NCBI GenBank assembly: GCA_019916065.1
Contig: CM034233.1
Span: forward strand, 39,844,862 to 39,908,861
From: Vitellaria paradoxa
Lineage: Eukaryota > Streptophyta > Magnoliopsida > Ericales > Sapotaceae
Reading direction: 5' to 3'
Length of the DNA: 64,000 nucleotides
A program made the translations under genes and the position numbers. Positions 45,501 through 64,000 of this stretch are shown here, piece by piece. The notes below the pieces were generated by a model, which was not told the origin of the DNA, did no database searches, and worked only from the letters and a program-made list of their open reading frames with translations. How positions within the stretch are numbered: position 1 is the first letter of the stretch; each line of letters begins with the position of its first letter.

Positions 45501-48500
45501 TTGATCTATTCCCATCTTAAAAATTAAAATTTATTCTATTATATAGATTAAATTATAAACTTACCTAATCGACTTGATCTCTTTTTTATTTCAAATTGTT
45601 TGTTAATTTTAATACACATTTTTGTTTTTTTTTTTTTAATTCTTGATTCATTTTGCAAAATTAGCTTGAGTTAGAAATACTATCAATCTTAATTATATTA
45701 AAATAATTTTTTGACTGGTTTTATAAAAATGACTCAAGTTAAAAATATATTTTTATTAATTGTATGTTGTACTTTACAAAAATAACTCAAATATTGGGTA
45801 TTATTAATAAGGTTTTTGACCGATGGTCAACATGACTAATTTAACTTTAAAATTGAACATTAAAAAAAAATTATTCTCTAGCCTAATTAATATTTAGGCA
45901 CTTCTAAGCCTAATTAACAGTAGGCATTTTTTCTTTGTATTTTAAATTTAAAATATACTGAGAGTTGTTATTATGAGAGGACTTAAATTTTTGTTAAATT
46001 TAATTAATATTGAATCAGTTTTAAATCATTTTTCAATCCTAATTATTATTTAAATATTTTTATTTGTGTTTTTAAATTTAATTTCAAATATGTTTGAAAT
46101 ATGAAATTTTACAACAATAGTTTAGTGAACCAGTAGGAAAGTGGTTCGATTTTGGAAACCCATTAACTCACTTCTTATTACTTACAATTACATAATACAA
46201 CCCTAGTGGCTATACAGACGAGAAAAATGTAGCTATAGTCATGTAATGATATGGAACAAAAAGAAGTAGAAAGAGAAAAAAGAGTGCTGAAGAATAAAAA
46301 AAGAAAGAGAGAGTTCCATTAAAAAAAAAAAAATGAAAAGTAGAATGATAATAAGCAAGGTGTTCGTATGGTTTATATTTGTGCTATAAAGGATACGTAT
46401 GAGGGAGCAACAACAAGTGTTAGAACTCCTGGAGGTATGACTGAAGATTTTCCCATAAAGATAGGGTTGCATCAGGGGTCATCCTTAAGCCCATACCTTT
46501 TCACTTTAGTTTTGGATGTACTTATTAGACATATTCAAGAGGCAGTGCCTAAATGTATGCTTTTTGCGGATGATATAGTTTTAGTAGAGGGGTTGAGAGA
46601 GGAAGTTAGTGATAAACTTGAGGTGTGGAGAGAAACCTTAGAATCAAAGGGTTTCCGTTTAAGTAGGAGCAAGGCAGAGTATATGGAATGTAAGTTTAAC
46701 AAGAGACGAGCTAGTAATAATTTAGAGGTAAAAATTGAAGAGCACAGCATGCCAAAAGTGTCAAGGTTTCGATATCTTGGATCGATTTTGCAAAGTGACG
46801 GAGAAATTGATGGGGATATCGTACATATGATACAAGCTGGGTGGTTAAAATGGAGAAATGCATCGAGATTCATTTGTGACCGTAAGGTACCTAATAAACT
46901 TAAAAGGAAAGTTTTATCGAACTGCTAAAAGACTAGTTATACTCTATGGAAGCGAGTGCTGGGCACTAAAGGGACAACAAGAGCAAAGAATTGGTGTAGC
47001 AGAGTTTAGAATGTTGAGATGGATGAGTGGACATACAAGAGAAGATAAGATTCGGAATGATTGTATTACGGAGAAGATTAGGGTTGCACCTATTAAGGAG
47101 AAAATGATAGAAATCTGGTTAAGGTGATTTGGTCATGTGCAAAGAAGACTGCTAGAGGTTCCAGTGAGGAGAGTTGATCGAATGGTTTTTAGTCCAATAA
47201 AAAGAAGTAGAGGCCCCACCCAGTGGGAAAAGGCTTGGTTTGGTTTGGCTTGGTTTGGTAAAAAGTAGATGAAGACCTAAAAGAACACTTGGAGAAGTTA
47301 TCAAAAGAGACCTTATTATAAATGATTTCCATCAACATATGATTTTTGATAGAACACAGTGGTGTCGTGATCTATGTAGCCGACTCCACCTAGTGGGATA
47401 AGGCTTATGTTGTTGTTGTTGTTGTTGTAGAATGATAATAAGGAGAGTGCACATAAGATTTGTTTTAATGAGAAAAAAGAAATAATTACACAACTTTGAT
47501 ATATGTATATATGGATAATATAGATTTATAAAAATCCTTTTCATATCAGAATTAATTTTTTTTGTAAATTTTACAACAAATCAATAGGTAGATTCGGTTT
47601 AAGGTTACCATGAGTTCACTTTACATTAATGAAGATCACATGTCATAACCATGTTGGAGTTGTGGTCATCTACTGATGTGGGTCAAAGGAGAGTAAATGT
47701 TTTGTGAATAAAAAAAAAAATATAAAAAAAATTGTTATTTGATTCAAAGTTTTGTAAAAATAGAGAAAATAGAATGGTGAATTTAGATAATGCCACACAG
47801 GATTTAGTAATAATTTTTCAATTAGTTTTATAAAAATAACTTAAATTAAAAATATTATCATTAATTGTACATTGTGCTTTATAAAAAAAATATGATGAAG
47901 CTGACCAATTTAAATATAATATTAGAATTTCAAAAAAAAAAAAAAAAATCACTCTTAGGACTAATTTTATTCAAAAAATTGTGAAAATAATATTAAAAAA
48001 AAGTAGAATGATGAATATAAAGTGCCATACAGGATTTGATAATAATTTTTTGATTGGTTTTATAAAAATAACTCAAATAAAAAATATTATCAATTGTATG
48101 TGTTTTATAAATAAAACAAATATAGTAAATGTGATCAATTTAAATTTAAAATTAAAATTTAGAGAAATAATACTCGAACTTTTTTTTTTTTGATCGGTAA
48201 GTGGGATCGGGGTCGAACCCGGGTGGATAAGTGGGCAATGGGACAGATCGCCAACTGAGCTAAAGCCGCACTTAATAATACTCTCGAACTTAGTTAATAT
48301 TTTGTTATTTTTTGTATTTTTAAATTTTAAAAATACTAAGAGTTATTGGAGAGAAATAACCTAGTTATTATTTAAGCATTTTGTATTTGTATTCTTTAAT
48401 TTAATTCCTAATGTATTTGAAATATGTAAATTTTACAACTATATTGAATTTATAAGCAAGTGAAATTTCACAACTATATTGAATTTATGAAAATGTGGGT

Positions 48501-51500
48501 TCCTTTTAAAACCTATGAATTCATTCATATTGGATTTATAAGCAAATGGGTTTCTTTTTCGAACTCAAACAAGTGGGTCTTTTTTTGGAACTCATGAGTT
48601 CATTCACATTTATTGAAATTATATGCCACAATATATAATTTTTGAACTTAACTCACTAAACATATATATAGATACACAATCTTTCACCATGAAGGAAGAG
48701 TGAAAGGAGAGAGTGAGGTTACATGGATGCGTAGGTGTAGGCTTGGGCAGCAAAATTAAAAACGGAAACAGACTTTAGTTGAAAAACCAAAGAAAGTAGG
48801 CAACTTACAAGTGACATAACCTGGACATGGCGTGTGCATCGGGAAGAGAATGGCGTACACATGTGAACACTCGAGCAGAGTCATGTGCACGGGAAAAGAG
48901 ATGTTATGCACAAGGGAAGCCCCCTGAGGGTTTGCATGACCGACATTATGACCTGTACTGAGCTTCCAAACCCAAATATGACAAAGCCTGAATTGAAAAC
49001 CAAGTAACTGAGTCAACTCTTGCATCAATCAATGACATCAAAATAAAATAATAAGCCAAAACACAGTGCATTATAAATAAAATAATACATGTAAAAGTAT
49101 AGGTCCTTAGAGGATGGCTTTGGATTCTTGATTAATGAAACATTTTTGTGCTTCTATTGATGTCATAAAGTGATCTATCGGAGGACATGGCCCTAAATAG
49201 ATCTAATTGGTGTTGACAAATCTATATAGTCGACCCCACCTAGTGGGAAAATGCTTGGTTTGGTTTGGTTTGGTCTATTGATGTCATAAAGCAATAAAAT
49301 ATATTTGGGGTGAGGTGTGTGCATAAAATGTTCTTTCATAAAGCAAGCCAAGCATAAAGCAATCATAGCTAGTGGTTGTAACTTGCTTCACGGGGAAGTT
49401 CATATCCTACATGCTTTGCCAAAGTTGATGCCTCTAAAGGCCACATATGAACATGGTCATCCAATTATTTTTTATCTTATCTAGGTAAGGTACTAGGCTG
49501 AAGAAATAACTAAATATCTTATCCGCTTATGTTTTTTTTCATGGCCGGTCCCAAGCCCGGATAAAGGAGGAGGGTTGTCTTAGGTAGTCGACAGACAGCG
49601 TAAAACTTTGTCGAATTTTTTTATGGATTTTCTGACACTTAATGAGATTTCGTGGGGGCGTTCCCTACTTAGTGACGCGCTGTATGGTCCGAGTACAGTG
49701 TTAAATAAGTAAGGACCGCTGCATCGGCGCCCGGGTGCGGTGTTAAATAGGTAAGGGTTCTCGCACTTTCCTGGACGAGTGGGGGGGCAAGGAAGCTAGT
49801 CGAAAATAGAAGGCTGAGATTAGGTACTTGGAATATTGGGAGCTTAATTGGGAAACTTATGGAAGTGGTGGATTCAATGGAAAGGAGAAGAATCGCAATT
49901 GCTGCAAGAGACGAAGTGGGTGGGACAGAAAGCTAAAGAGATTGAGAGGACTGGGTATAAGTTATGGTATACGGAACTTAATAGATCGAGAAATGGGGTC
50001 GGCATAGTAGTAAGCAAGGACCTAAAGGAAGATATAGTCAATGTGAAACGCTGTGGAGATAGGATTATTGCAATTAAGTTAGTCTTAGGAGAAGAGATAG
50101 TAAACATAATTAGTGCTTATGCCCCCCAGGTGGGCTTAGGAGATGTACATAAGGAGAAGTTTTGGGAAGACTTGGAAGGAATGCTATTAGAGATACCTCA
50201 AGGAGAGATGGTCTTCATAGGAGGAGATTTGAACAGTCATATAGGACGCGACATAGATGGATACATAGGAGTACACGGGGGATATGGTTACGGTGATAGA
50301 AATGAAGAAGGGAAGGATATTTTGGAGTTTGCAGTGGCTTATGATCTTATGGTGACGAACACCTTTTTTAGGAAGAGAGAGGAACATTTGGTGACTTATA
50401 AGAGTGGCTCCTCAAAGACACAGATTGACTTCTTCTTAACTAGGAAAAGAGACCGTGTAGCTTGTAAAGATTGTAAAGTTATACTAGGGGAGAGCTTGAC
50501 TACCCAACATAGGTTGTTGGTAATAGATGTGCAGCTTCAAAGGTGGGCTAGAAAAAAGAAGTCGCATAGATGCTCAAAGACTAAATAGTGGAACTTAAAA
50601 GGTGATAAGCAAGCAGCATTCAGGGAAAGAGTACTCGAGGAAAACATTTGGACGGTAAATGAGAGTGCAAATATTATGTGGGATAAGGTAGCAAAGTGTA
50701 TTAGGAGGGTAGGGAAAGAAGTCTTAGGAGAATCCAAAGAGAGTGCTCCGGCACAGAAAGAGGCATGGTGGTGGAATGAGGCCGTCAAAGACAAGATAAG
50801 AGTTAAAAGAGAGTGTTTTAAATCTTGGCAAAACGACCGAAATGAAGCGAACTTGGAGAGGTATAGAGAAGCTAGAAGAGAAACCAAAAAGGCAGTTAGT
50901 GAGGCTAAGGCAAAGACATTTGAGGATTTATATAGGCGACTTGACACTAAGGAGGGCGAAAGAGAGATATTCAAGCTTGCTAAATCTAGAGATAGACGGA
51001 CCAAGGATTTAAACCAAGTTAAATGCATTAAGGATGAGGATGAAAAGGTATTAGTAAAGGAAGAGGAGATAAAGGAGCGTTGGAAGAGCTACTTCTACAA
51101 GTTATTTAACGAAAGCAGTAGTAGTGACATATATTTGGGGCAGTTTACCACTTTTAGGGAAGAATTAAATTTTATGTTCTGTAGGAGAATCAGTAGGGAA
51201 GAAGTAAAAGAAGTATTAAAAAGGATGAAGAATGGGAAAGCGGTTGGGCCAGATGGTATCCCTATTGAGGTTTGGAGGTGCTTAGGAGAGGATGGTATAA
51301 GTTGGTTGACAAAACTTTTTAATGTAGTGCTAAAGAGCAAAAAGATGCCTGATGCATGGAGGAAAAGTATCCTTATACCCATATACAAGAACAAAGGAGA
51401 TATTCAGAACTGTGCGAACTACTGCGGGATTAAATTGATGAGCCATACGATGAAATTATGGGAGAGAGTTATTGAGAGAAGACTAAGAAGGACAACAAAC

Positions 51501-54500
51501 GTTTCTGAGAACCAATTTGGTTTCATGCCTGAAAGATCAACTATGGAGGCTATCTTTCTCTTGAGGAGGTTAATGGAACAGTATAGAGAAGGTAAAAAAG
51601 ATTTACATATGGTGTTCATCGATTTAGAGAAGGCATATGATCAGGTTCCTAGGGAGATTCTATGGAGAGTATTGGAAAAGAAAGGAGCGTGTGTCGCATA
51701 TATTGAGGCGATAAATGACATGTATGATAGAGCCATAACATCTATACGGACAACTGGTGGAGAGACTAATGAGTTCCCAATCACGATTGGTTTACATAAA
51801 GGCTCAGCGTTAAGCCCGTACTTGTTTGCTTTAGTTATTGCTGAGATTATAAGACATATTCAGGATGAGGTGCCGTGGTGTATACTATTTGCAGATGATA
51901 TTGTTTTAGTAGATAAGACGAGAGAAGGAGTGAATGTTAAGTTAGAATTGTGGCGGGATACGTTAGAGACAAAAGGGTTTAGGCTAAGCCGATGCAAGAC
52001 GGAATATATGGAATGTAAGTTTAGTCAAAATAGAATAACGGGTAGTATAGAAGTAAGTTTAGGCACACAAAAGATTGTAGAGAAAGATAAATTTAGGTAC
52101 TTTGGATCTATGGTGCAACAAGATGGAGGGATTGATACTGATGTAAGTCACAGATCTAATTGGCGTCGAAAAATCCATATAGCTGACCCCACCTAGTGGA
52201 AAAAGGCTTGGCTTGGTTTGGTTTGTCTTATATTCATTAGGCTCACTATAGTTCAGATGGAAATCATCGAGGTTTGAACAATTTGAGGAACTGGCATTGT
52301 TGTCGATATGATGGCCCAAGGCATAGACCATCCAGATAGTTGGAGTCTTGATCATGATGGGATTTGTTAGAAAACTAATGAGGTGCTAGTCAAGCGAATT
52401 GTTTCCATGCTTCCTTTGTCTTTTGTCTGTCCTTCTAAATTGAGTGCTTCGTGGTTCAAAAATGTGGAATCGATGGTGAATCCGTCTAGACCTGTGGCCT
52501 TGTCTCCATGCCTCCCCCAGAACCTTGAAAACCCCATCTTCCTCAAAAGGCCTTTGGGTGGGCTGTTCACCTATTAGAGTAGTATGTGAGTTGGGTTCAG
52601 AACGTTTTGAGACAGTTCGGTCCATGCTTGGATTTGAGTTTGCCCATTAAAGCGATATGTGAGCTTGGTTCAGAATGTTTTGAGACAATTCTGTCCATTT
52701 TGGCTTGGATTTAACTCTCTCTCTGTAATCCCAAGGTTCCTAATACACAAAGGGATGTGTAGGGATTCGGGTTGGTTCTTCATGGTTCTTGAAGAGAGAA
52801 ACACAATATCTTTGTAACCCTCGCTCCATCCTGGATAGAAATTCAGATTTACCATATACATAGACATTGGTGCGTTGTCGAAGAAGACAAACCTATGTTC
52901 TTGTGTGTTTGTTTGCTGATTTCTTTTTTGTTCTTTTTGCATATTTCACAGCATAATCCAAAGAGTCATGTGCTCAAAATTTTAGAATATTGAGCATGAT
53001 CATAGTGGCATGGTTTGCACAATATCATTTCCAAGCTAAGAATATCTCCTGACCCACCCAATCACACCTCCATATAATCCATTGGTGTGAGAAATATGTC
53101 AAATGGCTACCCACAAGAATGGTGCCTAAATAAGGCCATCCATGTTGAGATAGCTCTCCCTTTTAAGAGCATTCTTTATGGTGGTGCTTAGGACGACTTT
53201 TCGTTTAAGTGATTTTGTTGCTAGTTCAAGATACCTCCAAATCGTGCTTCCAGCTTTGTAACCCTTGCTGGTTCTTTCTTATACCTGGAAATTTTTTTTT
53301 TTTTTCGGTGGTGTTCTTTGTTCGCTATGTAGGTGACATGATTATAGCTATTAGGAGTTGGGTTTTGGTCTCTTCATTTCATCGTCGATTCTTGTATTTT
53401 ACTTGCCTACAGAAAGTAAAACGTACTTGTCCATGCTTGTGGGTTGAACCATACGGAAAGAAAGAAATGCTTAAAGTACGTAACTGGAGTATGATATGAT
53501 GATCCACAATGCCCTTCTAGAAAGTTGTATTGTTTTGTTTTGACCTGAACATAGTTTTGTCTGCATTTTTCTAACGTTGCTTCTAGATGATTTATATACT
53601 TGGCTTTTTAATGCAAGAATTGCTTCCCTGCATGGGCAGCCAAGAAAGTCTACAGGAAATTGCTTCTTTCTCTCTTATTGGTGTTACTATTTCTTGGCTC
53701 TTGAGCTTTCTAGCTGTTACTGGGTGACTACTGTCACATTTGTTAAATAGGCCATTCGTGAGATTTAAGTGGTCTTGGCATGTTCTAGATGGGACGGATC
53801 CTGCACCGGTTTTGAAGATAGTTAATAACTTTTCAAACTATGGAAAAAGGAACGAAGAATCCCTGGGTGAGCTCTTTGTTACCCTACTAATCAAGGTAAT
53901 GATAGTACCCTGGTCAGATATTGAGTTAAGAAAGGGTAGAATTCATGCAGGCAATGATCTTCACTCCATTTAAGGTTTAATGCGTGATTGATGGCTATAT
54001 TTCTTGCAGCTAGCATCTGTTGAAGCACTTTGGCCCAAAGGTCTTTGTGCCAGCACATATAAAGGATCTTGGATACTGAAAACTTGGGACTCCAAATTCG
54101 GCTGTATAAGTGTAATTTTATTTGTCTTCCCCCCCCCCCCCCCCCCGCGGGGAATATCGGAGGCTTTGGCTATGCTTTAAAACATGCTCATTGTGTGCTA
54201 ATTCTCATTTTTGCCAGGTTGAGGATTTCACTGACCGCTCTCAAAATATTGCTAGAGCAGTAGGAACAACAGAAGTAAAGAAGATCTACAAGTGTATCCA
54301 TTTTTCTATTCATTATGTTTTTTCCTTCATGAACGGAAAGATTCAAGGAACTGAGTTAACGGAAATTTTATTTGGCCGGGGACTTACACCTGTCGCAGTT
54401 GACAAAGGCACCAAAAATTTGGACAAAGGAACATTAGAGGCCGGTGTCAACCCTTTTCAGACGAAAAAGAGACGATTTAATGGATGTTGGGGGGGAAAAG

Positions 54501-54646
54501 AGCTAGCTATCCCTATGACCCCTATTCAGACAAAAAATATATCTAGCGGTTGGAATGGAAATCCTACGGCAAGTTGGCGAGGAACACCAACAGTGAGTTG
54601 GGGTGAAAATTCTACCGAATGTTGGGGAGGAACACCTAAAGCTTGA
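3666..54646 (+). CDS. HESO1-like: HESO1-like non-canonical RNA nucleotidyltransferase (terminal uridylyl/adenylyl transferase), nine coding exons
   Basis: This is a split gene of nine coding exons, listed separately, that join into 446 codons plus a TGA stop. All phases fit. The product is a DNA-polymerase-beta-like transferase that adds untemplated nucleotides, probably U, to RNA 3' ends. Visible parts are the GS motif at residues 80-81 (EEFGSF), the DLDLS catalytic pair D92 and D94, the third Asp D156 in ECDIS, the MKAWAKAH helix at 188, a PAP-associated domain around 252-300 (LGELF...WPKG), a basic KKRR patch at 387-390, and a WG/GW-rich tail at 394-446. Arabidopsis HESO1 tails unmethylated small RNAs and RISC cleavage fragments and works with AGO1; the same role here is inference. 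Eight introns include five of 5.9-12.4 kb, all full of retroelements. Substrate base (U or A) cannot be read from the sequence. If translation starts at 10826 instead, the protein has 453 residues. Confidence 0.85.
4268..5537 (-). mobile_element. L1-type LINE, 5'-truncated, in intron 1
   Basis: This is the 3' part of a plant L1 on the - strand. The poly(A) end shows as a T run near 4268. The frame at 5230-4682 carries the zinc-binding RVT region with NRCPLC and HMLLHC, preceded by [18 protein letters not shown]. The frame at 5418-5176 belongs to the region just before it, and 4678-4385 is the end. Stops and frameshifts break the frame. The 3' end, GAAAAAGATAAGTAA, is the same as in the 6 kb L1 at 16-22 kb, so both are one family. 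Similarity to that copy ends near 5537. Confidence 0.85.
4385..5418 (-). pseudogene. L1 ORF2 C-terminal remnant (zf-RVT region)
   Basis: Only the C-terminal part of the L1 ORF2 protein remains: the stretch after the reverse transcriptase and the zf-RVT Cys/His region. There are at least two breaks, near 5200 and 4680. No endonuclease or RT active site is present, so it is dead. Confidence 0.85.
7333..7361. repeat. T run and (CT)n tract
   Basis: A T run followed by CT repeats lies just before the 3' end of the RTE copy at 7384. It has no evident function. Confidence 0.8.
7384..8538 (-). mobile_element. RTE-type LINE, 5'-truncated, in intron 1
   Basis: The - strand copy ends in the family tail, AAACCAAACCAAATTAAGCC on the + strand, next to the conserved CCCATTAGGTGGGATCGGCTA block. 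It carries the C-terminal RT region ([20 protein letters not shown] and [18 protein letters not shown] at 7893-7639). Its 5' border is at CTCCAT near 8538. It is related to the copies at 30044, 39093 and 49540. Several frameshifts make it a pseudo-copy. Confidence 0.88.
8571..10010. repeat. Direct repeat of about 150 bp flanking the fold-back element
   Basis: The sequence at 8571-8603 plus 8741-8880 (with ATACTTTTGGTATTAAACAT and TATTTTTATGGAACATATTA) recurs at 9859-10010 in the same direction. In the first copy it is split by about 137 bp of other DNA (8604-8740). This marks an older duplicated element around the fold-back insertion. Confidence 0.6.
8904..9856. mobile_element. Fold-back/MITE-like element with TIRs of about 300 bp
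   Basis: The left end (AGGATTAATTACACTGATGC from 8904) and the right end (reading inward from 9856, AGGGTTAATTACATTGACAC) are inverted copies. The match continues, with gaps, to about 9235 on the left and about 9530 on the right. The centre is AT-rich and codes for nothing. Flanks AAATAGT and AAATAAT are a possible decayed target-site duplication. It could be a Mutator-like non-autonomous element; the superfamily is not settled. Confidence 0.75.
10860..11048 (+). CDS. Coding exon 2 of the nucleotidyltransferase
   Basis: The acceptor is TTGATTGCAG ending at 10859 and the donor is GTAATT at 11049. It encodes the N-terminal helical part, with [10 protein letters not shown] and [12 protein letters not shown], the region before the GS motif in this family. 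It leaves one base (G) that joins GA of exon 3 as Gly. The open frame extends back to an ATG at 10826, so this exon could instead be 10826-11048 and hold the start codon. Confidence 0.8.
11049..13593 (+). other. Intron 2, with a possible solo LTR at about 13020-13330
   Basis: No second gene is seen. A (GA)n microsatellite lies at 11382-11413. A short copy of the AAAAGTTCAAATTATTAGAG repeat family lies at about 12403-12485. The stretch 13020-13330 has a TATTTAAA box, then AAGCC and AATAAA signals in the order expected in a plant LTR, but I found no clear ends. Confidence 0.4.
11382..11413. repeat. (GA)n microsatellite
   Basis: About 15 GA units with one interruption lie in intron 2. Confidence 0.9.
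13594..13767 (+). CDS. Coding exon 3: GS motif and catalytic DxD
   Basis: The acceptor is CTATTTTAG ending at 13593 and the donor is GTAATT at 13768. It encodes EEFGSF, the GS motif that holds the nucleotide triphosphate, and SDLDLSV, the two metal-binding Asp residues. Both are intact. It leaves one base, A, which joins GA of exon 4 as Arg. Confidence 0.9.
14515..14643 (-). repeat. Copia 3' LTR (candidate)
   Basis: It matches 25120-25262 at several blocks, including CATGAATAAGGAAAAGAAAT-like sequence and ACACTAAAGACATTT. It adjoins a polypurine tract of the - strand element at 14644-14660. Exact ends are uncertain because the two copies have diverged. Confidence 0.6.
15350..16027 (-). pseudogene. 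Copia reverse transcriptase remnant
   Basis: The - strand frame at 16005-15685 has [20 protein letters not shown] then ASLHSDL and VYIKQLP, the copia RT core ([14 protein letters not shown] in active members). The frame at 15583-15350 has [13 protein letters not shown] and [10 protein letters not shown], the RT C-terminal part. The YVDD region between them is lost or shifted. The N-terminal continuation lies at 22047-22313, beyond the inserted L1. Confidence 0.85.
16154..19804 (-). pseudogene. L1 ORF2 (endonuclease, reverse transcriptase, zf-RVT) remnant
   Basis: It starts at 19804 with [12 protein letters not shown]. Then come the endonuclease blocks YLQETK (19748 frame), GGHFN, SRIDRF and SDHFPVLL (19502-19065). 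The usual GGDFN has become GGHFN, so a catalytic Asp is lost. The reverse transcriptase lies at 18383-17476 with [18 protein letters not shown] and [13 protein letters not shown]. The FADD box lies near 17740, next to a 29-base tandem duplication (17674-17702 and 17703-17731) that shifts the frame. The thumb region is 17439-16972, and the zf-RVT region at 16792-16154 has NRCQLC and HLLIHC. It is dead. Confidence 0.9.
17674..17731. repeat. 29-base tandem duplication in the L1 RT
   Basis: Two identical 29-base copies (starting TTGCATCAAGTCTGCACCAC) lie head to tail at 17674-17702 and 17703-17731. They sit just after the FADD codons on the - strand and cause a frameshift. Confidence 0.9.
19986..21930 (-). 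pseudogene. L1 ORF1 (DUF4283-type RNA-binding protein) remnant
   Basis: The protein would bind LINE RNA. The N-terminal part (about 21930-21790) reads [20 protein letters not shown], then comes a break, then the frame at 21743-21051 with [18 protein letters not shown] and [20 protein letters not shown], the DUF4283 fold. The frame at 20993-20790 has IGNFCGGF and [13 protein letters not shown], the region before the zinc knuckle. A basic linker follows (20741-20391, [18 protein letters not shown]), then 20390-19986. At least four frame breaks are present. Confidence 0.8.
22047..24900 (-). pseudogene. Copia gag/integrase remnant
   Basis: The - strand frame 22313-22008 reads [13 protein letters not shown] then proline-rich [13 protein letters not shown] and ESHYEKGEK, the linker before the copia RT. 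Around 22560-22500 a sequence like the integrase end is visible but broken. The block at 24480-24060 reads, in pieces, like copia gag ([15 protein letters not shown], then [13 protein letters not shown]). Stops are frequent. No intact domain remains. Confidence 0.65.
25120..25262 (-). repeat. Copia 5' LTR (candidate)
   Basis: This is the second copy of the 14515-14643 sequence in the same orientation, at the other end of the copia element. The two copies differ at many positions, so the insertion is old. Confidence 0.6.
25264..25850. repeat. Cluster of inverted-repeat elements
   Basis: The motif ATCTCACCTAAAAGCTTAAG (25360s) recurs in degenerate form at about 25565, and in reverse at about 25810 (TTTTTAGGTGAGATGGTAGT) and 25335. 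GTCAATGTAAATAATAAA occurs twice in the same direction (about 25281 and 25784). Two arms around 25345 can pair, so this is a fold-back type repeat family. Further members are at about 12405 and 42990. Confidence 0.65.
26195..26379 (+). CDS. Coding exon 4: third catalytic Asp
   Basis: The acceptor is GTCATGCAG ending at 26194 and the donor is GTAATA at 26380. It encodes AKVPILKVV followed by [14 protein letters not shown], where the D of CDIS is the third catalytic carboxylate of the transferase fold. It ends in phase 0. A 12.4 kb intron with a copia element and a nested L1 separates it from exon 3. Confidence 0.9.
26620..27590 (-). pseudogene. Ty3/gypsy gag remnant (first family)
   Basis: The frame at 27590-27291 reads [20 protein letters not shown], and the frame at 27279-26986 reads [20 protein letters not shown] then [13 protein letters not shown] and SRFVHGLRP, the retrotransposon gag domain. 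A further frame, 26949-26614, is low complexity. A stop and shift separate the parts. No pol is present to its left, where the host exon 4 follows within 240 bp. It lies just downstream, on the - strand, of the LTR and primer-binding site at 28337-29376. Confidence 0.8.
27591..28336 (-). other. Gypsy leader region between primer-binding site and gag
   Basis: About 750 bp lie between the primer-binding site and gag. It has a T run and CT tract (27734-27770) and a GC-richer block at 28010-28340 that holds several short - strand frames without a recognisable domain. It is probably untranslated or part of a decayed leader. Confidence 0.5.
28337..28348 (-). promoter_or_regulatory. Gypsy primer-binding site (tRNA-iMet type)
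   Basis: On the - strand TGGTATCAAAGC begins two bases after the LTR end (TGTTGCGTCA). It differs by one base from TGGTATCAGAGC, the standard complement of the initiator methionine tRNA 3' end used by plant LTR elements. Confidence 0.75.
28351..29376 (-). repeat. Gypsy LTR with nested insertions, between a pol end and a gag
   Basis: The ends are TG...CA on either strand (left TGACGCAACA, right CATCATTCA). On its left is a primer-binding site, and on its right the purine tract AAGGGGAGG that follows the pol frame. A TATA box for - strand transcription lies near 28470 (CTATATAAAGG). It contains a foreign stretch at about 28557-29000 with TGGTATCAGAGC, and within that the SINE at 28814-28920. 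One LTR thus serves as the 3' LTR of the element to the right and as the 5' LTR of the material to the left. Confidence 0.65.
28814..28920 (-). mobile_element. tRNA-derived SINE with 19 bp target duplication
   Basis: On the - strand it begins GAGCGTGGCCTTAGCTCGG, an A box (TTAGCTCGGTTGG). A B box (GGTTCGAGTCT) follows about 50 bases later, and it ends in an A run of about 20. The duplication AAATAACTTGATATACGTT flanks it at 28795-28813 and 28921-28939. There is no coding part. It resembles a tRNA head but lacks the rest of a tRNA fold, so it is not a tRNA gene. Confidence 0.88.
29377..30032 (-). pseudogene. Gypsy integrase C-terminus with chromodomain-like end
   Basis: Conceptual - strand reading gives [20 protein letters not shown] then [19 protein letters not shown], the integrase C-terminal region. 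It is followed by [18 protein letters not shown], in the place of the chromodomain, and ends ...NSFFKGR and stop at the purine tract. Its link to the rest of the integrase is split by the RTE insertion. Confidence 0.8.
30044..31214 (+). mobile_element. RTE-type LINE, 5'-truncated, nested in gypsy
   Basis: It is flanked by TAGCATCTCAA at 30033-30043 and 31215-31225. The RT carries [32 protein letters not shown], and [10 protein letters not shown] where the active box is FADD, so a catalytic Asp has become Asn. The C-terminal part (30714-31088) has [20 protein letters not shown] and [12 protein letters not shown]. It ends with CCCACCTAATGAGAAAAGGC and a GGTTTGGTTT tail. Frames are broken at about 30494 and between the two parts. 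Confidence 0.92.
31545..31868 (-). pseudogene. Gypsy integrase zinc-binding region
   Basis: The - strand frame has [20 protein letters not shown], then [16 protein letters not shown]. This is the HHCC zinc finger of a Ty3/gypsy integrase. The catalytic core that should follow is lost or unreadable between this point and the RTE insertion. Confidence 0.85.
32342..33450 (-). pseudogene. Gypsy reverse transcriptase and RNase H remnant
   Basis: The frame 33319-32978 holds [19 protein letters not shown] then [20 protein letters not shown], and 33065-32625 has [11 protein letters not shown] and [16 protein letters not shown]. After KTAFRPHGG it jumps to [20 protein letters not shown], so the segment with the YVDD box is deleted. 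RNase H begins at 32563 with [20 protein letters not shown]. Confidence 0.88.
33459..34285 (-). pseudogene. Gypsy protease and gag C-terminal remnant
   Basis: The frame 33716-33459 has [20 protein letters not shown]; the aspartic protease D-T/S-G triad reads DKG. Further right, pieces read [15 protein letters not shown], a decayed CCHC zinc knuckle, and [19 protein letters not shown] of gag near 34200-34285. This gag differs from the one at 26.6-27.6 kb, so two gypsy families are present. Confidence 0.75.
34286..34492. mobile_element. Fragment of a possible hAT-like repeat
   Basis: It begins TAGGGGTGGAAACGAGTTGA and is full of GAGCTCGAG/AAGCTCG variants, a pattern common at the ends of plant hAT-type repeats. 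It abuts and cuts the gypsy gag. The other end was not found, so it is probably truncated. Confidence 0.4.
35830..36075 (-). pseudogene. Leucine-rich-repeat receptor exon fragments (possible)
   Basis: On the - strand, 35930-35830 reads [20 protein letters not shown] followed by TKLHYL. The piece at about 36070-36005 reads [19 protein letters not shown]. Both fit the plant LRR pattern LxxNxLxGPIPxxL. They are bounded by AG and GT dinucleotides like the small LRR exons of plant receptor kinases. No kinase domain is visible. The leftover stretch 35150-35400 contains an open piece with a hydrophobic segment that I do not recognise. Confidence 0.4.
36500..37900 (+). other. Rest of intron 4, no supported gene
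   Basis: There is AT-rich DNA with short frames only. A 17-base local duplication (TTCTCAAGGAATGCG) sits at about 36901-36932. A - strand piece near 37150-37070 reads like a short exon but could not be assigned. Exon 5 of the host gene follows at 37901. Confidence 0.5.
37901..37996 (+). CDS. Coding exon 5: central helical domain
   Basis: The acceptor is ATATTATAG ending at 37900 and the donor is GTATGA at 37997. Its 32 codons begin [11 protein letters not shown] and end VAFHLQ, matching the VKEWAKAHNIN...FHFQ region of HESO1-type enzymes. It is in phase 0 at both ends. It is too short and too isolated to be found by open-frame length. Confidence 0.9.
39093..40372 (-). mobile_element. RTE-type LINE, 5'-truncated, split by a TIR element
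   Basis: The - strand copy has the AAACCAAACCAAGCC tail at its left end and the CCCACTAGGTGGGGTCGGCTA block beside it. Flanking AATAAAGAAATAAAA and AATAAAGAAAATAAAA (39077-39092 and 40373-40389) are a near-perfect target-site duplication. The RT C-terminal region is readable only in pieces. A 643 bp element at 39232-39874 interrupts it. Confidence 0.9.
39232..39874. mobile_element. 643 bp hAT-like non-autonomous TIR element
   Basis: The ends CTATGAAACACGGATAC and, inverted, CTATGAAGCACGGATAC match at 16 of 17 bases. The 8 bp host sequence CTAATAGT is present on both sides (39224-39231 and 39875-39882) and only once in the related RTE copies. Subterminal GTATCCGTATCCG-type repeats fill both ends. 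There is no coding capacity. Eight-base duplications are the hAT hallmark. Confidence 0.9.
40591..40611. repeat. (CT)n microsatellite
   Basis: About ten CT units lie in intron 5. Confidence 0.9.
42538..42598. repeat. T run followed by (CTT)n
   Basis: About 30 T bases are followed by ten CTT units. Open frames across it (poly-F or poly-K/R) are low-complexity artefacts. Confidence 0.9.
43882..43927 (+). CDS. Coding exon 6: 46-base micro-exon
   Basis: The acceptor is TTATCTTGCAG ending at 43881 and the donor is GTAATA at 43928. It encodes [15 protein letters not shown] plus one G. The G joins AT of exon 7 to give Asp. The proline-rich PPILPP string matches the family at this place (PAILPP in HESO1). 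It was found by looking for the peptide expected between exons 5 and 7. Confidence 0.88.
44228..45260. repeat. Unclassified repeat with three internal units of about 75 bp
   Basis: It starts with TGTCACGTCCTAAATTCC, which looks like an LTR start. At about 44830-45000 the block GGCATCTACGTCGTTTCATG (then GGGACACTCG) occurs twice clearly and once in degenerate form, always near ATAACCAATAT. No protein region or second LTR was found. It may be a non-autonomous LTR element. Confidence 0.45.
46356..47426 (+). mobile_element. RTE-type LINE, 5'-truncated, with (TTG)n tail
   Basis: It is flanked by GTAGAATGATAATAAG at 46340-46355 and 47427-47442. The RT has [20 protein letters not shown] and an intact [10 protein letters not shown] box. 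After a frameshift near 46920 the end reads [20 protein letters not shown]. It ends in GTTGTTGTTGTT, unlike the GGTTTGG tail of the other copies, so it is a second RTE subfamily. Within it, 47211-47258 is a stray fragment of the first subfamily's tail. Confidence 0.92.
47211..47258 (+). mobile_element. RTE tail fragment of about 48 bp inside another RTE
   Basis: GCCCCACCCAGTGGGAAAAG followed by GCTTGGTTTGG repeats is the 3' end of the other RTE subfamily. The flanks AAAAAGAAGTAGA and AAAAAGTAGA are a possible imperfect duplication, so it looks like an extreme 5'-truncated insertion. Confidence 0.55.
47690..48180. repeat. Two tandem AT-rich units of about 235 bp
   Basis: The block GAATGGTGAATTTAGATAATG, with CCACACAGGATTT after it, at about 47772 recurs in degenerate form at about 48007, each followed by TTGGTTTTATAAAAATAACT-like sequence. 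A related stretch lies at 45700-45790. It is a local repeat family of unknown kind. Confidence 0.6.
48181..48273 (-). mobile_element. tRNA-derived SINE, second copy
   Basis: On the - strand it has an A box (TTAGCTCAGTTGG), a B box (GGTTCGACCCC) and an A-run end. It is flanked by AATAATACTCGAACT (48166-48180) and AATAATACTCTCGAACT (48274-48290). Its A- and B-box surroundings match the SINE at 28814-28920, so they are one family. Confidence 0.88.
49171..49273 (+). mobile_element. 103 bp RTE tail insertion with 18 bp target duplication
   Basis: Only the last 103 bp of an RTE element are present: GGAGGACATGGCCCTAAATA, then the CCCACCTAGTGGGAAAATGC block and a GGTTTGGTTT tail. TCTATTGATGTCATAAAG stands on both sides (49153-49170 and 49274-49291) without a mismatch, so the insertion is recent. 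Confidence 0.92.
49540..52231 (+). mobile_element. RTE-type LINE with 5' end, internal 3' deletion
   Basis: The most complete RTE here starts near GGCCGGTCCCAAGCCCGGAT and ends in GGCTTGGCTTGGTTTGGTTT. It contains an apurinic-type endonuclease and a reverse transcriptase. Compared with the copy at 30669-31140, about 450 bp between GATGTAAGTCACAG and ATCTAATTGG are missing (junction near 52154), which removes the RT C-terminus. No clear target duplication was found. Confidence 0.9.
49810..52196 (+). pseudogene. RTE endonuclease-reverse transcriptase, one frameshift, one stop, 3' deletion
   Basis: The single RTE protein begins about 49810 with [11 protein letters not shown] frameshift lies just before LLQETK (49900). 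The endonuclease then reads on to 50588 with [28 protein letters not shown] and a final TTQHRLLV, all catalytic positions present. One TAG at 50586-50588 separates it from the same-frame RT (50676-52196), with [41 protein letters not shown] and [10 protein letters not shown] intact. The deletion at 52154 throws it into 3' tail sequence. Only these three changes separate it from an open frame, so it is fairly young. Confidence 0.9.
52579..52715. repeat. Tandem duplication of about 85 bp
   Basis: TATGTGAGTTGGGTTCAGAA at 52583 and TATGTGAGCTTGGTTCAGAA at about 52658 begin two similar blocks (each with GTTTTGAGACA and GTCCAT) head to tail in intron 6. Confidence 0.65.
53789..53895 (+). CDS. Coding exon 7: start of the PAP-associated domain
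   Basis: The acceptor is TGTTCTAG ending at 53788 and the donor is GTAATG at 53896. It encodes [14 protein letters not shown], then [16 protein letters not shown], the start of the PAP-associated domain. Its last 55 bases or so, from 53841, are the first part of the 1.75 kb unit that is repeated downstream. Confidence 0.88.
54010..54111 (+). CDS. Coding exon 8: PAP-associated domain
   Basis: The acceptor is TTTCTTGCAG ending at 54009 and the donor is GTAATT at 54112. Its 34 codons run from [15 protein letters not shown] to KFGCIS, in phase 0 at both ends. Copies of this exon lie at 55773, 57558 and 59279. Those in units B and C carry stops, and the one in unit D is open. Confidence 0.9.
54129..54146. 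repeat. 18-base C run in intron 8
   Basis: Eighteen C bases are followed by GCGGGG, where the other units have T-rich or mixed pyrimidines (TTCTTTTTTCTCCCC in B). It sits in the short intron between exons 8 and 9. Confidence 0.85.
54218..54646 (+). CDS. Coding exon 9: domain end and WG-repeat tail, stop
   Basis: The acceptor is TTTTGCCAG ending at 54217. It encodes [17 protein letters not shown], which closes the transferase body, then a basic TKKRR patch, then a tail of 8-residue repeats ([24 protein letters not shown]) that hold tryptophans next to glycines. It stops at TGA 54644-54646. Past the stop the frame goes on with SGNSTGNWGQIPKA, and the other units read TGG where this unit has TGA. 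The tail has therefore been shortened in this unit. Confidence 0.88.
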   Translation, partial: VEDFTDRSQNIARAVGTTEVKKIYKCIHFSIHYVFSFMNGKIQGTELTEILFGRGLTPVAVDKGTKNLDKGTLEAGVNPFQTKKRRFNGCWGGKELAIPMTPIQTKNISSGWNGNPTASWRGTPTVSWGENSTECWGGTPKA

Positions 54647-55603
54647 AGCGGAAATTCTACCGGAAATTGGGGACAAATACCTAAAGCTTAGTATTGAAAA
54701 ATAAGGTGGATCATTTACATTCCTCTAGGGGTCCTGTGGTGGTGGTGGCATTTGTGATGGATTAGATTACAAATGAGTTGGTTAGTGCTTCATGCACATA
54801 ACGACCAATTCGTGATGATTCTCATGGTCTGTACATGCTTCTATGTTTTTCCATGCAGTGCAGCCTTTCCTACATGGAATATCATAGTAATTTTATGAAG
54901 CAAACTCAGTTGTATATTGTTGCTATAAATTGGTGCCATATACTTGTAACCAAAAGAATCACAGGGCTGCAAGTGCAACAATTAGTACAGTTGCTCCATT
55001 TTTAGGAACTAGAAATTATATTACCAAGTTGAAGTAACGGTGGGGCATTTGACAAGATCGTTTTTTAGTATTACGAGTTGTTTTTGAATCCGCGAGGACG
55101 TAATATTAAATTCACAATAAATAAACAAAAAGGTGAAAGTTATAAGAAAAGTTTAATTTGATGCTTAACTTGAATGGATAAAAAGTGTTTGCAAATGCTT
55201 CTATTTATAGGAAATATTAATCAGTTTAACTCTAATTAAGGTAAGTTTTTCTAAAAATTTTTATATTCAAATTATAAAAAGAAATATAATCGAAAGGGTG
55301 AGCGTATTTTCATTCCGTAAATAATCTATTACACTCCACGTTATCTTTTCTTTAAATGGAATTATAAAATTATTATTTTTTGACTAACTATTTTTGTGTC
55401 TAATTTAAAATGAATTGTCCTTCATAATTAAGAACATTTACAAATTTAAATAAACACACTTAGATCTACAAGAGAATATAGTTGAATTATTTTTAAAGAT
55501 TAAAATAATTTATATTTTAAAAAAATCATATAAAAATAAATTATTTTATTTTATTTCATAATTTAATTAAATAAAAAATTAATTTTGGAGTATCAAAAAT
55601 CAG

Positions 55604-57363
55604 TGGAAAAAGGAATAAAGAATCCCCGGGTGAGTTCTTTGTTACCCTACCAATCAAGGTAATGATTGCATCCTGGTCAGATATTGAGTTGAGAAGGGGT
55701 CGAATTCATGCAAGCAATCATCTTCACTCCGTTTAAGGTTTAATGCGTGATTGATGGCTATATTTCTTGCAGCTAGCATCTGTTGAAACATGTTGGCTCA
55801 CAGGTCTTTGTGCCAGCACATATGAAGGATCTTGGATATTGAAAACTTAGGACTCTAAATTTGGCTGCATAAGTGTAATTTTATTTGTCTTCTTTTTTCT
55901 CCCCTGGAATATTGGAGGCTTTGGTTACGCTTTAAAGCATGCTCATTGTGTGCTAATTCTCATTTTTGATAGGTTGAGGATTTTACTGACCGCTCTCAAA
56001 ATATTGTTCGAGTAGTAGGAACAATAGAGGTAAAGAAGATTTACAAGTGTATCCATTTTTCTATTCATTATGTTTTTTTCCTTCATGAATGGAAAGATTC
56101 AAGGAACTGAGTTAATGGAAATTTTATTTAGCTGGGGACTTACACCTGTTGCAGTTGACAAAGGCACCAAAAATTTGGACAAAGGAACATTAGGAGTTGG
56201 TGTCAGCCCTATTCAGATGAAGAAGAGACGACTTAATGGATGTTGGGGGGGGGGGAAGTGCTAGCTATCCGTGTGACCCCTATCCAAACAAAAAATATAT
56301 CCAGCGGTTGGGGTGGAAATCCTACGGCAAGTTTGGAAGGAGCACAACAGTGAGTTGAGGAGAAAATTCTATTGGATGTTGGGTAGGAACACCTAAAGCT
56401 TGGGGTAGAAATTCTACCGAAAATTGGGGACAAATACCTAAAGTTTGGTATTAAAAAATCAGGTGGAACATTTGCATTCCTCCGAGGGTCCTACGATGAC
56501 AGAGGCGTCTATGATGGATTAGATTACAAATGAGTTGGTTAGTGTTTCATGCACATAGCAACCAGTTCATGTTGATTCTCATTGTCTGTACATACTTCTA
56601 TGTTTTTCCTTGTAGTGCAGCCTTTCCTACATGGAATATTATAGTAATTTTATGAATCAAACTCAGTTGTATATTGTTGGTATAAACTGGTGCCATATAC
56701 TTGTAACCAAAAGGATCATAGAGCTGCAAGTGCAACAATTAGTACAATTGCTCCATTTTTAGAAACTGAAAATTATATTATCAAGTTCAAGTAACAGTGG
56801 GGCATCTGACAAGATCGTTTTTGAGTACGACGAATTGTTTTTGAATCCACAAGAATGTAATATTAAATTTACAAAAAATAGACGAAAACACGAAGTTATA
56901 ATAAAATTTTAATTTTATTCTTAACTTGAATGGATAAAGAGTATCTACAAATACTTCTATTTATGGGAAATATTAATCAGTTTAACTCTAATTAAGATAA
57001 GTTTTTCTAAAAATTTTCGTATTCAAATTATAAAAAGAAATATAATTGAAAGGTGAGTCTATTTGCATTCTACAAATAATCTAATGCACTCGACGTTATT
57101 TTTTCTTTAAATGGAATTATAAAACTATCATTCTTTGACTAATTATTTTTGTGTCTAATTTAAAATGAACGTAATTGTCCTTCATAATTAAGAACATTTA
57201 CAAATTTGAACAAACATAGTTAGACCTATAAGAGAGTATAAAAGAATTATTTTTAAAGATTAAAATAATTTAAATTTTAAAATAATCATATAAAAATAAA
57301 TTATTTTATTTTATTTCATAATTTAATTAAATAAAAAATTAATTTTCGAGTATCAAAAATCAG
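55604..57363 (+). pseudogene. Unit B: pseudogene copy of exons 7 (part), 8 and 9
   Basis: The partial exon 7 copy ends at 55658 with its donor. The exon 8 copy (55773-55874) has TGG to TAG in the KTW codon. The exon 9 copy (55973-56454) has an extra T in the VFSF stretch near 56072, shifting frame, and a G run near 56246. Beyond the place where unit A stops, this copy reads GCTTGGGGT, showing the tail once continued. Confidence 0.9.
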
Positions 57364-59109
57364 TGGAAAAAGGAATGAAGAATCCCCCGGTGAGCTCTTT
57401 GTTACCTTACTAATCAAGATAATGATTGTACCCTTTTTTTTAGGTAATGATTGTACCTTGGTTAGATATTGAGTTAAGAAGGGGTAGAATTCATGCAAGC
57501 AATGATCTTCACTCCATTTAAGGTTTAATGTGTGATTAATGGCTATATTTCTTGCAGCTAGCATCAGTTGAAACACTTTGGCCCAGAGGTCTTTGTGCCA
57601 CCACATATGAAGGATCTTGGATACTGTAATCTTGAGACTCTAAATTTGACTGTATATGTGTAATTTTGTTTGTCTTTTTTTTTTTTTTGGAATATTGGAG
57701 GTCTTGGCTACGCTTTAAAGCATGCTTATTGTGTGCTAATTCTCATTTTTGCCAGGTTGAAGATTTCATTGACCACTCTTAAAATATTGCTAGAGCAGTA
57801 GGAACAACAGAAGTAAAGAAGATCAACAAGTGTATCCATTTTCTGTTCATTATGTGTTTTCCTTCATGAATGGAAAAATTCAAGGAACTGAGTTACTGGA
57901 AATTTTATTTGGCCGGGGACTTGCACTTGTTGCAGTTGACAAAGGCACCAAAAATTTGGACAAAGGAACATTAGGGGTCGGTGTCAACCCTATTCAGACG
58001 AAAAAGAGACGACTAAATGGATGTTGGAGGGAAAAGAGCTAGCTATCCCTGTGATCCCTATTCAGGCAAAAAATATATCCAACGGTTGGGGTGGAAATCC
58101 TACGACAAGTTTGGGAGGAACACCAACAGTGAGTTTGTGGTGAAAATTCTACCGGATGTTGGGGAGGAATACCTAAAGCTTGGGGTGGAAATTTGACCGG
58201 AAATTGGAGACAAATACCTAAAGCTTGGTATTGAAAAATCAGGTGGATCATTTGCATTCCTCTAGGGGTCCTACAATGGTGGTGGCGTCTGTGATGGATT
58301 AGATTACAAATGAGTTGGTTAGTGCTTCATGCACATAACGACCAGTGCATGTTGATTCTCATGGTCTGTACATACTTCTATGTTTTTCCTTACGGTGTAT
58401 CCTTTCCTACATGGAATGTTATAGTAATTTTATGAATCAAACTCAGTTGTATATTGTTGCTATAAATTGGTGCCATATACTTGTAACCAAAAGGATCATA
58501 GAGCTGCAAGTGCAACAATCAGTATAGTTGCTCCATTTTTAGGAACTAAAAATTATATTACCAAGTTGAAGTGACGGTGGGGCACTTAACAAGATTGTTT
58601 TTTAGTACTACAAGTTGTTTTTGAATCCGCAAGGATGTAATATTAAATTCACAATAAATAAACAAAAAGGCTAATGTTATAAGAAAAGTTTAATTTGATA
58701 CTTAACTTTAATGGATAGGGAATGTTTACAAATGCTTTTATTTGTAGGAAATATTAATCAATTTTTTTTTTGGTAAGTAATATTAATCAGTTTAACTCTA
58801 ATCAGTATTTTCACTCCGTAAATAATCTATTACACTTCATCTTATCTTTTCTTTAAATGGAATTATAAAATTATCATTTTTTGAGTAACTATTTTTGTGT
58901 CTAATTTAAAATGAACGTAATTGGCCTTCATAATTAAGAACATTTACAAATTTAAACAAACACACTTAAACCTACAAGTGAATATAAAAGAATTATTTTT
59001 AAAGATTAAAATAATTTATATTTTAAAAAAATCATATAAAAATAGATTATTTTATTTTATTTTATAATTTAGTTAAATAAAAAATTAATTTTAGAGTAAC
59101 ATAAATAAG
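57364..59109 (+). pseudogene. Unit C: pseudogene copy of exons 7 (part), 8 and 9
   Basis: The exon 8 copy (from 57558) has a TAA after WIL. The exon 9 copy (from 57756) has a TAA in place of the Gln codon of DRSQN and a one-base deletion near 57840. The donor after partial exon 7 is damaged, with a small duplication of GTAATGATTGTACC around 57420-57455. It cannot make the domain. Confidence 0.9.
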
Positions 59110-60867
59110 TGGAAAAAGGAATAAAGAATTCCCAAGTGAGCTCTTTGTTACCCTACCAATCAAGGTAATGATTGCACCCTAGTCAGATATTGAGTTAAGA
59201 AGGGATAGAATTCATGCAAGCAATCATCTTCACTCCATTTAAGGTTTAATGTGTGATTGATGGCTATAGTTCTTGCAGCTAGCATCTGTTGAAACACGTT
59301 GGCCCAAAGGTCTTTGTGCGAGCATATATGAAGGATCTTGGATATTGAAAACTTGGGACTCTAAATTTGGCTGTGTAAGTGTAATTTTATTTGTCTTCTT
59401 TTTTCTCACCTGGAATATTGGAGGTTTTGGCTACGCTTTAAAGCATGCTCATTGTGTGCTAATTCTCATTTTTGATAGGCTAAGGATTTCACTGACCGCT
59501 CTCAAAATATTGTTCGAGCAATAGGAACAATAGAAGTAAAGAAGATCTACAAGTGTGTCCATTTTTCTATTCATTATGTTTTTTCCTTCATGAACGGAAA
59601 GATTTAAGGAATTGAGTTAATGGAAATTTTATTTGGCCGGGGATTTGCACCTGTTGCTTTTGACAAAGGCACCAAAAATTTGGACAAAGGAACATTAGGG
59701 GCCGGTGTCAACCCTATTTAGACGAAAAAGAGACGACTAAATGGATGTTGGAGGGAAAAGAGCTAGCTATCCCTATGACCCCTATTTAGGCAAAAAATAT
59801 ATCCAGCGGTTGGGGTGAAAATCCTATGGCAAGTTGGGGGGGAGCACCAACAGTGAGTTTGTGGTGAAAATTCTATCGGATGTTGGGGAGGAATACCTAA
59901 AGCTTGGGGTGAATATTTGACCAGAAATTGGGGACAAATACCCAATGCTTGGTATTGAAAAATCAGGTGGATCATTTGCATTCATCCAGGGGTCTTGCAG
60001 CGGTGGTGGCGTCTGTGATGGATTAGATTACAAATGAGTTGGTTAGTCATGCACATAACGACTAGGTCGTGTTGATTCTCATGGTTTGTACATACTTCTA
60101 TGTTTTTCCTTGCAGTGCAGCCTTTCCTACATGGAATATTATAGTAAATTTATGAATCAAACTTAGTTGTATATTGTTGCTATAAATTGGTGCCATATAC
60201 TTGTAACCAAAAGGATCATAGAGCTATAAGTGCAACAATTAGTACAGTTGCTCCATTTTTAGGAACTAAAAATTATATTACTAAGTTGAAGTAACGGTGG
60301 GGCATTTGACAAGATTGTTTTTGAGTACTACGAGTTGTTTTTGAATCTGTAGGGACGTAATATTAAATTCACAAGCAATAAACAAAAACACGAAAGTTAT
60401 AAGAAAAGTTTAATTTGATTCTTAACTTGAATGGATAGAGAGTGTTTACAAATGTTTCTATTTATATGAAATATTAATCAGTATAAACTCTAATTATGAT
60501 AAGTTTTTCTAAAAATTTTCGTATTCAAATTATAAGAAGAAATATAATTGGAGGGGTGGGCTTATTTGTACTCCACAAATAATCTATTGCACTCCACGTT
60601 ATCTTTTTTTTTTTTTAAATGGAATTATAAAATATCATTCTTTGACTAAGTATTTTTGTGTCTAATTTAAAATGAACATAATTGGCCTTCATAATTAAGA
60701 ACATTTACAAATTTAAACAAGCACACTTAAACCAACAAGTGAATATAAAAGAATTATTTTTAAAGATTAAAATTTATATTTTAAAAAAATCATATAAAAA
60801 TAAATTATTTTATTTTATTTTATAATTTAGTTAAATAAAAAATTAATTTTGGAGTATCAAAAATCGG
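59110..60867 (+). pseudogene. Unit D: pseudogene copy of exons 7 (part), 8 and 9
   Basis: The exon 8 copy (59279-59380) is open and keeps both splice sites. The exon 9 copy (from 59479) stays open until CAA to TAA in the KIQG stretch near 59606, which removes the WG tail. The unit's own tail ends near 60867, where the sequence leaves the repeat, so four units are present in all. Confidence 0.9.
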
Positions 60868-61700: not shown

Positions 61701-61899
61701 CGTCTTCTGTCTCTTCATATTTTTTCTCTACAAATACATTTTCTTCGCATCTATGGAGGTTTTTCGCATATTCACGCTTCCAAAGCTCCCATAGATCCAC
61801 TATCTCAACTCTCCATTCTCACTGCTTTGTCCCTATCAATGTATTTCATTTGGGTGAGAGTTCAATTGGGCCTTTTCTCCTTCCTTCTAAATTTTGTAG

Positions 61900-63940: not shown

Positions 63941-64000
63941 TTCGATCGTCTTTCTGTTATGTCCTTTTGTAAATTTTCATTTATGTAACTTCAGGGCGTT

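Follow-up and report, generated by a model that had tools for sequence, protein, structure and literature searches.

Introduction

ARGONAUTE (AGO) hooks are described as disordered regions with variable repeats, in which a conserved tryptophan (Trp) mostly stands in a GW or WG context; they are annotated from three motifs up, and one AGO is said to need no more than two or three Trp (PMC10991848). The tailing enzymes HESO1 and URT1 are both reported to interact with AGO1 (PMC4415790), and in a 2026 review with a three-group classification, Arabidopsis HESO1, NTP4, and NTP5 share a group and NTP4 is described as a nuclear enzyme that monouridylates microRNA* (miRNA*) strands and acts on miRNA/miRNA* duplexes (PMC13030794). 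For the CCR4-NOT complex, a 2021 study speculated on a GW-repeat protein that joins plant NOT9B to AGO1 (PMC8009681). A question that we see in the field is how tailing enzymes reach RNAs inside Argonaute. Here, we describe a gene in a stretch of 64,000 nucleotides from Vitellaria paradoxa (assembly GCA_019916065.1, contig CM034233.1, positions 39,844,862 to 39,908,861 of the forward strand; hereafter the window), which encodes a terminal nucleotidyltransferase of a family sister to HESO1 and ends in a tail with WG/GW pairs. With slightly better than even confidence, we read it as an intact core followed by a tail that was built up in asterids into a multivalent, disordered WG/GW domain of the AGO-hook type, which would tether the enzyme to AGO.

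Gene Structure, Family Identity, and Catalytic Core

Exons were located with a HESO1 sequence as tblastn probe, which gave mostly noise at low thresholds and usable matches at higher scores, combined with inspection of the borders (Table 1). Pfam scans of the three forward frames covered 10300-49900 and 54100-64000 and located the palm domain in two pieces. Exons 2-9 (10860-54646) join into a single open frame that codes for 441 residues, and every inner exon border follows the AG/GT rule. The joined protein matches PF22600 with 89.6 bits (cut-off 27; E 2.5e-25), and its sequence matches in the Protein Data Bank (PDB) are TUT4, TUT7, GLD2, and URT1. For exon 1 the pattern derived from the Camellia start has one match with two mismatches, where 0.63 are expected by chance and 47 of 100 shuffles also give one; since a single match of this kind often arises by chance, the exon is not established. 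The number 9 given to the last exon by an initial annotation of the window is thus plausible, with eight exons established and the first as a candidate. The frame in which that annotation had read exon 9 is shared by relatives from Camellia and Actinidia, which carry the TKKRR / TKRMR, AIP, and W-G blocks in frame, and another frame for this exon is unlikely.

Judged by identity and phylogeny, the window protein is a terminal nucleotidyltransferase in a family sister to HESO1, here termed HESO1-like. Its closest relatives among the matches listed come from Camellia lanceoleosa (75% identity at full query coverage), Actinidia eriantha (72%), and Bertholletia (70%). Over the 331 columns of the core it is 84% identical to Camellia vs. 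33% to Arabidopsis HESO1 (AT2G39740). A quick tree of 58 rows, many forks of which are weak, places the window with 41 HESO1-like rows on one side and 16 HESO1 rows on the other, a split that has a support of 100 in the Shimodaira-Hasegawa-like approximate likelihood ratio test (SH-aLRT). Within it, the window groups with seven rows of Ericales (94, below the mark of 95) inside a set of Ericales and Cornales (95). All 182 HESO1-like rows are nearer to the window (51-84%) and all 120 HESO1 rows nearer to Arabidopsis HESO1 (58-100%), and the two kinds coexist in Camellia, Actinidia, Rhododendron, Vaccinium, Cornus, Bertholletia, and other genera. Core identity, the tree split, and the nearer-relative assignment therefore rule out HESO1 itself. 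The protein had initially been labeled a HESO1-like nucleotidyltransferase, which is right as to the enzyme class and the WG/GW tail, provided that the name is taken to mean a sister family and not HESO1. Because the review cited above groups both with HESO1, NTP4 and NTP5 (AT3G45750 / AT3G45760) are probably the Arabidopsis counterparts, a conclusion drawn from the published grouping; a probe for them found no Arabidopsis record among the 120 matches listed, the best being 63% to rice.

The window protein has the GS motif and the catalytic aspartate (Asp) triad of the palm (D87, D89, and D151), which in the 182 relatives is kept in 180 and 181 (exon 3 pair) and in 181 (exon 4). At none of 78 near-invariant core positions (columns kept in at least 97% of 41 relatives) does the window depart, which leaves a pseudogene of the core unsupported. 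An AlphaFold model of the Camellia relative (47-row alignment) has a confident core to about residue 362, mostly with a predicted local distance difference test score (pLDDT) of at least 90, and its best PDB folds are CutA, TUT7, GLD-2, and URT1, that is, the TUT/PAP fold. For nearly all of residues 369-725 the pLDDT is below 50; the Camellia tail is thus predicted to be disordered, as AGO hooks are, and the window tail may be disordered likewise. One chain in the PDB, 9hcj_V0 (WD40-like), matched the Camellia tail (E 4.9e-10), which was taken as low-complexity similarity.

HESO1 K175 has been equated with URT1 Y592, and URT1 Y599 is described as stacking on uracil, its Ala mutant being nearly without activity (PMC9561377). 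By the same offset, HESO1 Y182 would be the URT1 Y599 site. The window has Leu 203 here; its 182 relatives have Leu in 136, Met in 42, Phe in 3, and a gap in 1, so that none of the 181 with a letter has tyrosine (Tyr), and the 120 HESO1 rows have Tyr in 115 and Phe in 5. The HESO1-like family is probably active, and because of the Leu or Met at this site its nucleotide preference is not to be taken from HESO1.

The C-Terminal Tail and WG/GW Pairs Across Relatives

After the end of the core (EILFG) the window protein has a tail of 89 residues, and the end of exon 9 reads in frame QTKKRRFNGCWGGKELAIPMTPIQTKNISS and then GWNGNPTA SWRGTPTV SWGENSTE CWGGTPKA, followed by the stop. Five Trp, four of them beside glycine (Gly), form four WG/GW pairs, where three such motifs are enough for a region to be annotated as an AGO hook. 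The octads that the initial annotation reported at the end of exon 9 are present there and in frame, with Trp touching Gly in three of the four only: in SWRGTPTV, also listed as having Trp beside Gly, the Trp adjoins Arg and the Gly stands one residue further. In the DNA, the tail has a diverged 24-nucleotide direct repeat with start-to-start spacings of 24, 24, and 45, too diverged for Tandem Repeats Finder, which returned no array for the tail at score 30. The basic motif QTKKRR before the repeats is a possible nuclear signal, and a loose Lys/Arg pattern occurs in 133 of 176 tails of relatives (tails of at least 60 residues).

If the tail were a hook, relatives should carry such repeats, and their lack had been named as grounds for giving up the idea; asterid relatives carry far more pairs than the window. 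Tails were delimited by alignment, the rows compared are database clusters with several per genus, and taxa were grouped by us; the searches favored asterids and grasses, and the counts are not rates per species. At least four pairs are present in 75 of the 182 HESO1-like rows, and none in another 75. Among named asterid rows 64 of 75 have at least four, with a median of 10 (72 tails of at least 80 residues) and up to 46, as in Camellia (46), Erythranthe (monkeyflower, 41), pepper (28), Cornus (23), a wild tomato (10), and tobacco species (9-11), and for 52 of the 75 no more than 5 in 500 shuffles come up to the observed count. The Camellia tail has 365 residues vs. 89 in the window. Four or more pairs are found in 1/26 rosid rows (Tripterygium, 26 pairs), 0/48 monocot rows, 0/3 magnoliid rows, 1/2 rows of Liquidambar/Malania (Malania, 9), 1/5 basal eudicot rows (Thalictrum, 4, within shuffle expectation), and 8/23 rows without name. 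On these counts, the putative hook is mostly limited to asterids within the set of rows compared. Mapped on the 58-row tree, the state of at least four pairs requires at least six changes, or eight by a stricter definition, to which Thalictrum and the pair-poor Diospyros contribute. One of the changes falls on the rosid Tripterygium wilfordii (P0106), whose 26 pairs stand in a tail of another build and seem to have been gained independently.

Of the 120 HESO1 rows, 117 have no pair, three have one, and none has two or more; with a plain cut after residue 310, six rows have one pair and none has two. Their median length is 116 vs. 188 residues in HESO1-like tails, and 92 of the 120 have at least 80. 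The initial proposal that the tail explains how HESO1 reaches the RNA-induced silencing complex consequently falls, both because the protein is not HESO1 and because HESO1 tails lack such pairs.

The repeats themselves differ in architecture. Camellia and Tripterygium have a main Trp spacing of 9, Cornus and Nyssa one of 8, and Erythranthe, Paulownia, and Handroanthus one of 11; in Malania it is 19, and it is mixed in Rhododendron (8 and 23), Nicotiana (5 and 14), and Capsicum (8 and 17). Spacers vary between orders, with some shared by members of a single order (GTQQP, for example, by several Lamiales). W with G stays, and in 41 chosen asterid tails Gly is enriched 3.4-fold beside Trp. Trp is the best kept repeat position in Erythranthe (14/14) and Cornus (8/9), and the repeat units of Capsicum are too similar to judge. 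Variable repeats around a conserved Trp, the pattern described for AGO hooks, are thus seen at the level of the family, with a limit set by the comparisons within single proteins that are weighed below. Taken together, these comparisons make an AGO-hook-like domain likely in the asterid HESO1-like tails.

Tandem 3′ Copies of the Gene End

At its 3′ end the gene runs into a small array of pseudogene copies. Over 53841-60869, a unit of about 1.76 kb occurs four times head to tail, each time carrying the last part of exon 7 together with exons 8 and 9 and the 3′ flank. Over the 3′ part, copies 2-4 share 88.0-89.5% identity with copy 1. Stops or frameshifts hit exons 8 or 9 in copies 2, 3, and 4; copy 1, which belongs to the gene, is unbroken. 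Private changes (silent/amino-acid-changing/stop) in 112 core codons number 4/4/0 in copy 1, 4/6/1 in copy 2, 5/10/3 in copy 3, and 2/11/1 in copy 4; in 80 tail codons the corresponding figures are 2/6/1, 9/7/0, 0/3/0, and 1/2/2. With these small numbers, the core of copy 1 looks better kept than the cores of copies 2-4; the same cannot be said of its tail. Beyond the TGA stop of copy 1, more repeat-like sequence with a further W-G follows. A run of 18 C at 54129-54146 in intron 8 is missing from copy 2 and may be a length error of sequencing or assembly.

Weighing the Hook Reading Against Its Alternatives

Several observations tell against an AGO hook. In the window itself, the four pairs are marginal when taken alone, since 21 of 500 composition-keeping shuffles reach four (mean 1.44). 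Copy 1 has a private TGG to TGA change that makes the stop at 54644-54646, where the other three copies have TGG, and a private GGT to AAT codon change that turns GWG into GWN. Among the relatives, 11 of the 75 asterid rows, including some short ones, do not reach four pairs. Many Trp of Solanaceae are not beside Gly (beside Gly in 9/25 of Nicotiana P0041 and 17/37 of P0062). Within proteins, Trp is no better kept than Gly, Thr, and Pro in Camellia (21/27 distinct units) and Olea (5/7), nor better than Gly in the Tripterygium repeats (8/11). The advantage of Trp being unclear in three of the six species, it is the comparison of lineages with one another that carries the case for selection on Trp. 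The tail of Arabidopsis HESO1 has no WG/GW pair, though HESO1 is reported to interact with AGO1, and a WG/GW tail is therefore not needed for that interaction. Finally, with Leu in place of the presumed base-stacking Tyr, tailing activity is not to be assumed.

Because of the private stop and the GGT to AAT change, the window tail looks like a hook being lost in the Vitellaria paradoxa genome, a short and partly eroded version of those in its relatives. This leads to the alternative that the Vitellaria gene is a paralogue undergoing decay or has dispensed with its hook, so that the core is intact and the role of the tail is lost, which would be compatible with a working hook elsewhere in asterids. 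The shortness of the tail next to that of Camellia, the stop codon private to copy 1, the three broken tandem 3′ copies, and the retroelement pieces in the introns all speak for it; the unchanged 78 near-invariant core positions, the intact frame and borders of all eight exons, and the fact that copy 1 alone of four is unbroken speak against decay. We consider this account doubtful, though it deserves real weight.

Rather unlikely, in our judgment, is a neutral minisatellite, in which an unconstrained disordered tail lets G-rich DNA around an old EGWGG-like motif expand by slippage and the WG repeats have no function. It would agree with repeat spacings and spacers that are lineage-specific, with the unclear advantage of Trp over Gly in half of the species examined, and with the private changes in the tail of copy 1 (2 silent, 6 amino-acid-changing, and 1 stop in 80 codons). 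Slippage alone would hardly lead to a W-G context that recurs at varying spacing across many lineages of asterids and once more in Tripterygium, a rosid, nor to pair counts that shuffles rarely reproduce in 52 of 75 asterid rows. HESO1 tails, 92 of them with at least 80 residues, are without such repeats (0/120 with two pairs), and the C-terminus of Arabidopsis HESO1 is also called disordered (PMC6191825).

That the Trp motifs bind CCR4-NOT through the NOT9 site for GW182, instead of or besides AGO, in the manner of GW182 in animals, and couple the enzyme to deadenylation is very unlikely, as nothing in the present data links the HESO1-like family to NOT9 and Gly is strongly preferred beside Trp, as described for AGO hooks.

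Proposed Mechanism and Significance

Argonaute has Trp pockets, and if the tail is an AGO hook, its Trp side chains would dock in them. Docking would hold the catalytic core by the 3′ end of an AGO-associated RNA, which could be a small RNA, a passenger strand, or a sliced 5′ fragment, and the core might then tail this RNA, with substrate and added nucleotide both presumptive. In its widest and, we think, unlikely form, the proposal would be that in asterids, and separately in Tripterygium, a sister of HESO1 became a hook-bearing, multivalent binder of AGO (perhaps also of NOT9) with an altered base pocket, opening a tailing route for AGO-bound RNAs that is absent from the biology of Arabidopsis HESO1; such a protein could turn out to be the plant GW-repeat protein, so far missing, that links AGO1 to CCR4-NOT. 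The pair-rich relatives in pepper, tomato, tobacco, and monkeyflower make both the question of access to AGO and that of the NOT9B-AGO1 linker testable in transformable plants.

Other Elements in the Window

The introns contain pieces of retroelements, with RVT_1 matches on the + strand at about 30110-30510 (intron 4) and 46440-46790 (intron 6). The segment 51513-52153 is 90% identical to 30041-30679, which adjoins an RVT_1 match. Two copies of a sequence of about 1.26 kb, at 4274-5534 and 16047-17296, share 64% identity.

Table 1. Positions of the gene, its tail, the tandem copies, and a long interspersed nuclear element (LINE)-like element in the window. ORF, open reading frame.
Feature	Position	Strand	Basis or remark
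Candidate exon 1, ATGGGTGAGAGAG then GTGAGT donor, reads MGER	3666-3678	+	Pattern from Camellia start MAMGEK; not established
Exon 2, start of nucleotidyltransferase core	10860-11048	+	AG/GT borders, open frame
Exon 3, palm with G-S and D-L-D catalytic motif	13594-13767	+	PF22600, E 0.00087 for the piece alone
Exon 4, palm with third catalytic Asp (ECDIS)	26195-26379	+	PF22600, E 5.8e-11
Exon 5, Leu at base-stacking site (HESO1 Y182, presumed equivalent of URT1 Y599)	37901-37996	+	Frame, borders, alignment
Exon 6	43882-43927	+	Borders, open frame
LINE-like element in intron 6	49848-52196		Endonuclease-like ORF 49848-50588, reverse-transcriptase-like ORF 50589-52196; judged by eye
Exon 7	53789-53895	+	Borders, open frame
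Exon 8	54010-54111	+	Borders, open frame
Exon 9, core end, C-terminal tail, and stop	54218-54646	+	In-frame reading
QTKKRR basic motif	54458-54475	+	Pattern
CWGG, first WG of the tail, upstream of the octads	54485-54496	+	In-frame reading
Octad GWNGNPTA, hook-like repeat	54548-54571	+
Octad SWRGTPTV, hook-like repeat	54572-54595	+
Octad SWGENSTE, hook-like repeat	54596-54619	+
Octad CWGGTPKA, hook-like repeat	54620-54643	+
TGA stop	54644-54646	+	Aligned codon of three other tandem copies is TGG
Tandem copy 2, exon 7 end to 3′ flank	55604-57365	+	About 1.76 kb; broken by stops/frameshifts
Tandem copy 3, exon 7 end to 3′ flank	57364-59106	+	About 1.76 kb; broken by stops/frameshifts
Tandem copy 4, exon 7 end to 3′ flank	59110-60869	+	About 1.76 kb; broken by stops/frameshifts

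Comparison With Known Systems

In the titles and abstract openings of the open literature searched, we found no description of an AGO hook on a plant nucleotidyltransferase. A word search of reviews of the enzyme family returned neither "hook" nor "tryptophan," and in listed papers where HESO1 and words for hooks both occur, the two are mentioned separately. The window and its relatives would thus represent a known type of tail on an enzyme for which this literature held no prior description.

With HESO1 the window protein shares the terminal nucleotidyltransferase core, the catalytic Asp triad, and the Lys at the K175 site; it differs in its core identity of 33%, its separate clade, the WG tail that HESO1 lacks, and the change of Tyr182 to Leu. 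GW182/TNRC6 of animals is a scaffold without enzyme activity. Its GW repeats are bound by AGO (PMC8009681), a likeness drawn from description and not from sequence, whereas the carrier here is an enzyme. URT1 is a sequence match of the window protein and a fold match of the Camellia relative; in contrast, its large disordered region is N-terminal (PMC6191825) and it keeps Y599. The plant AGO hooks of NRPE1, SPT5L, SPT6L, NERD, SDE3, and SUO are described as likewise disordered, with variable repeats, Trp in WG/GW context, and gain or loss by lineage, the hook of SDE3 being reported only in Asteraceae and Brassicaceae (PMC10991848). Those hooks sit on a polymerase subunit, elongation factors, and other proteins, whereas here the putative AGO-binding tail is carried by a nucleotidyltransferase.
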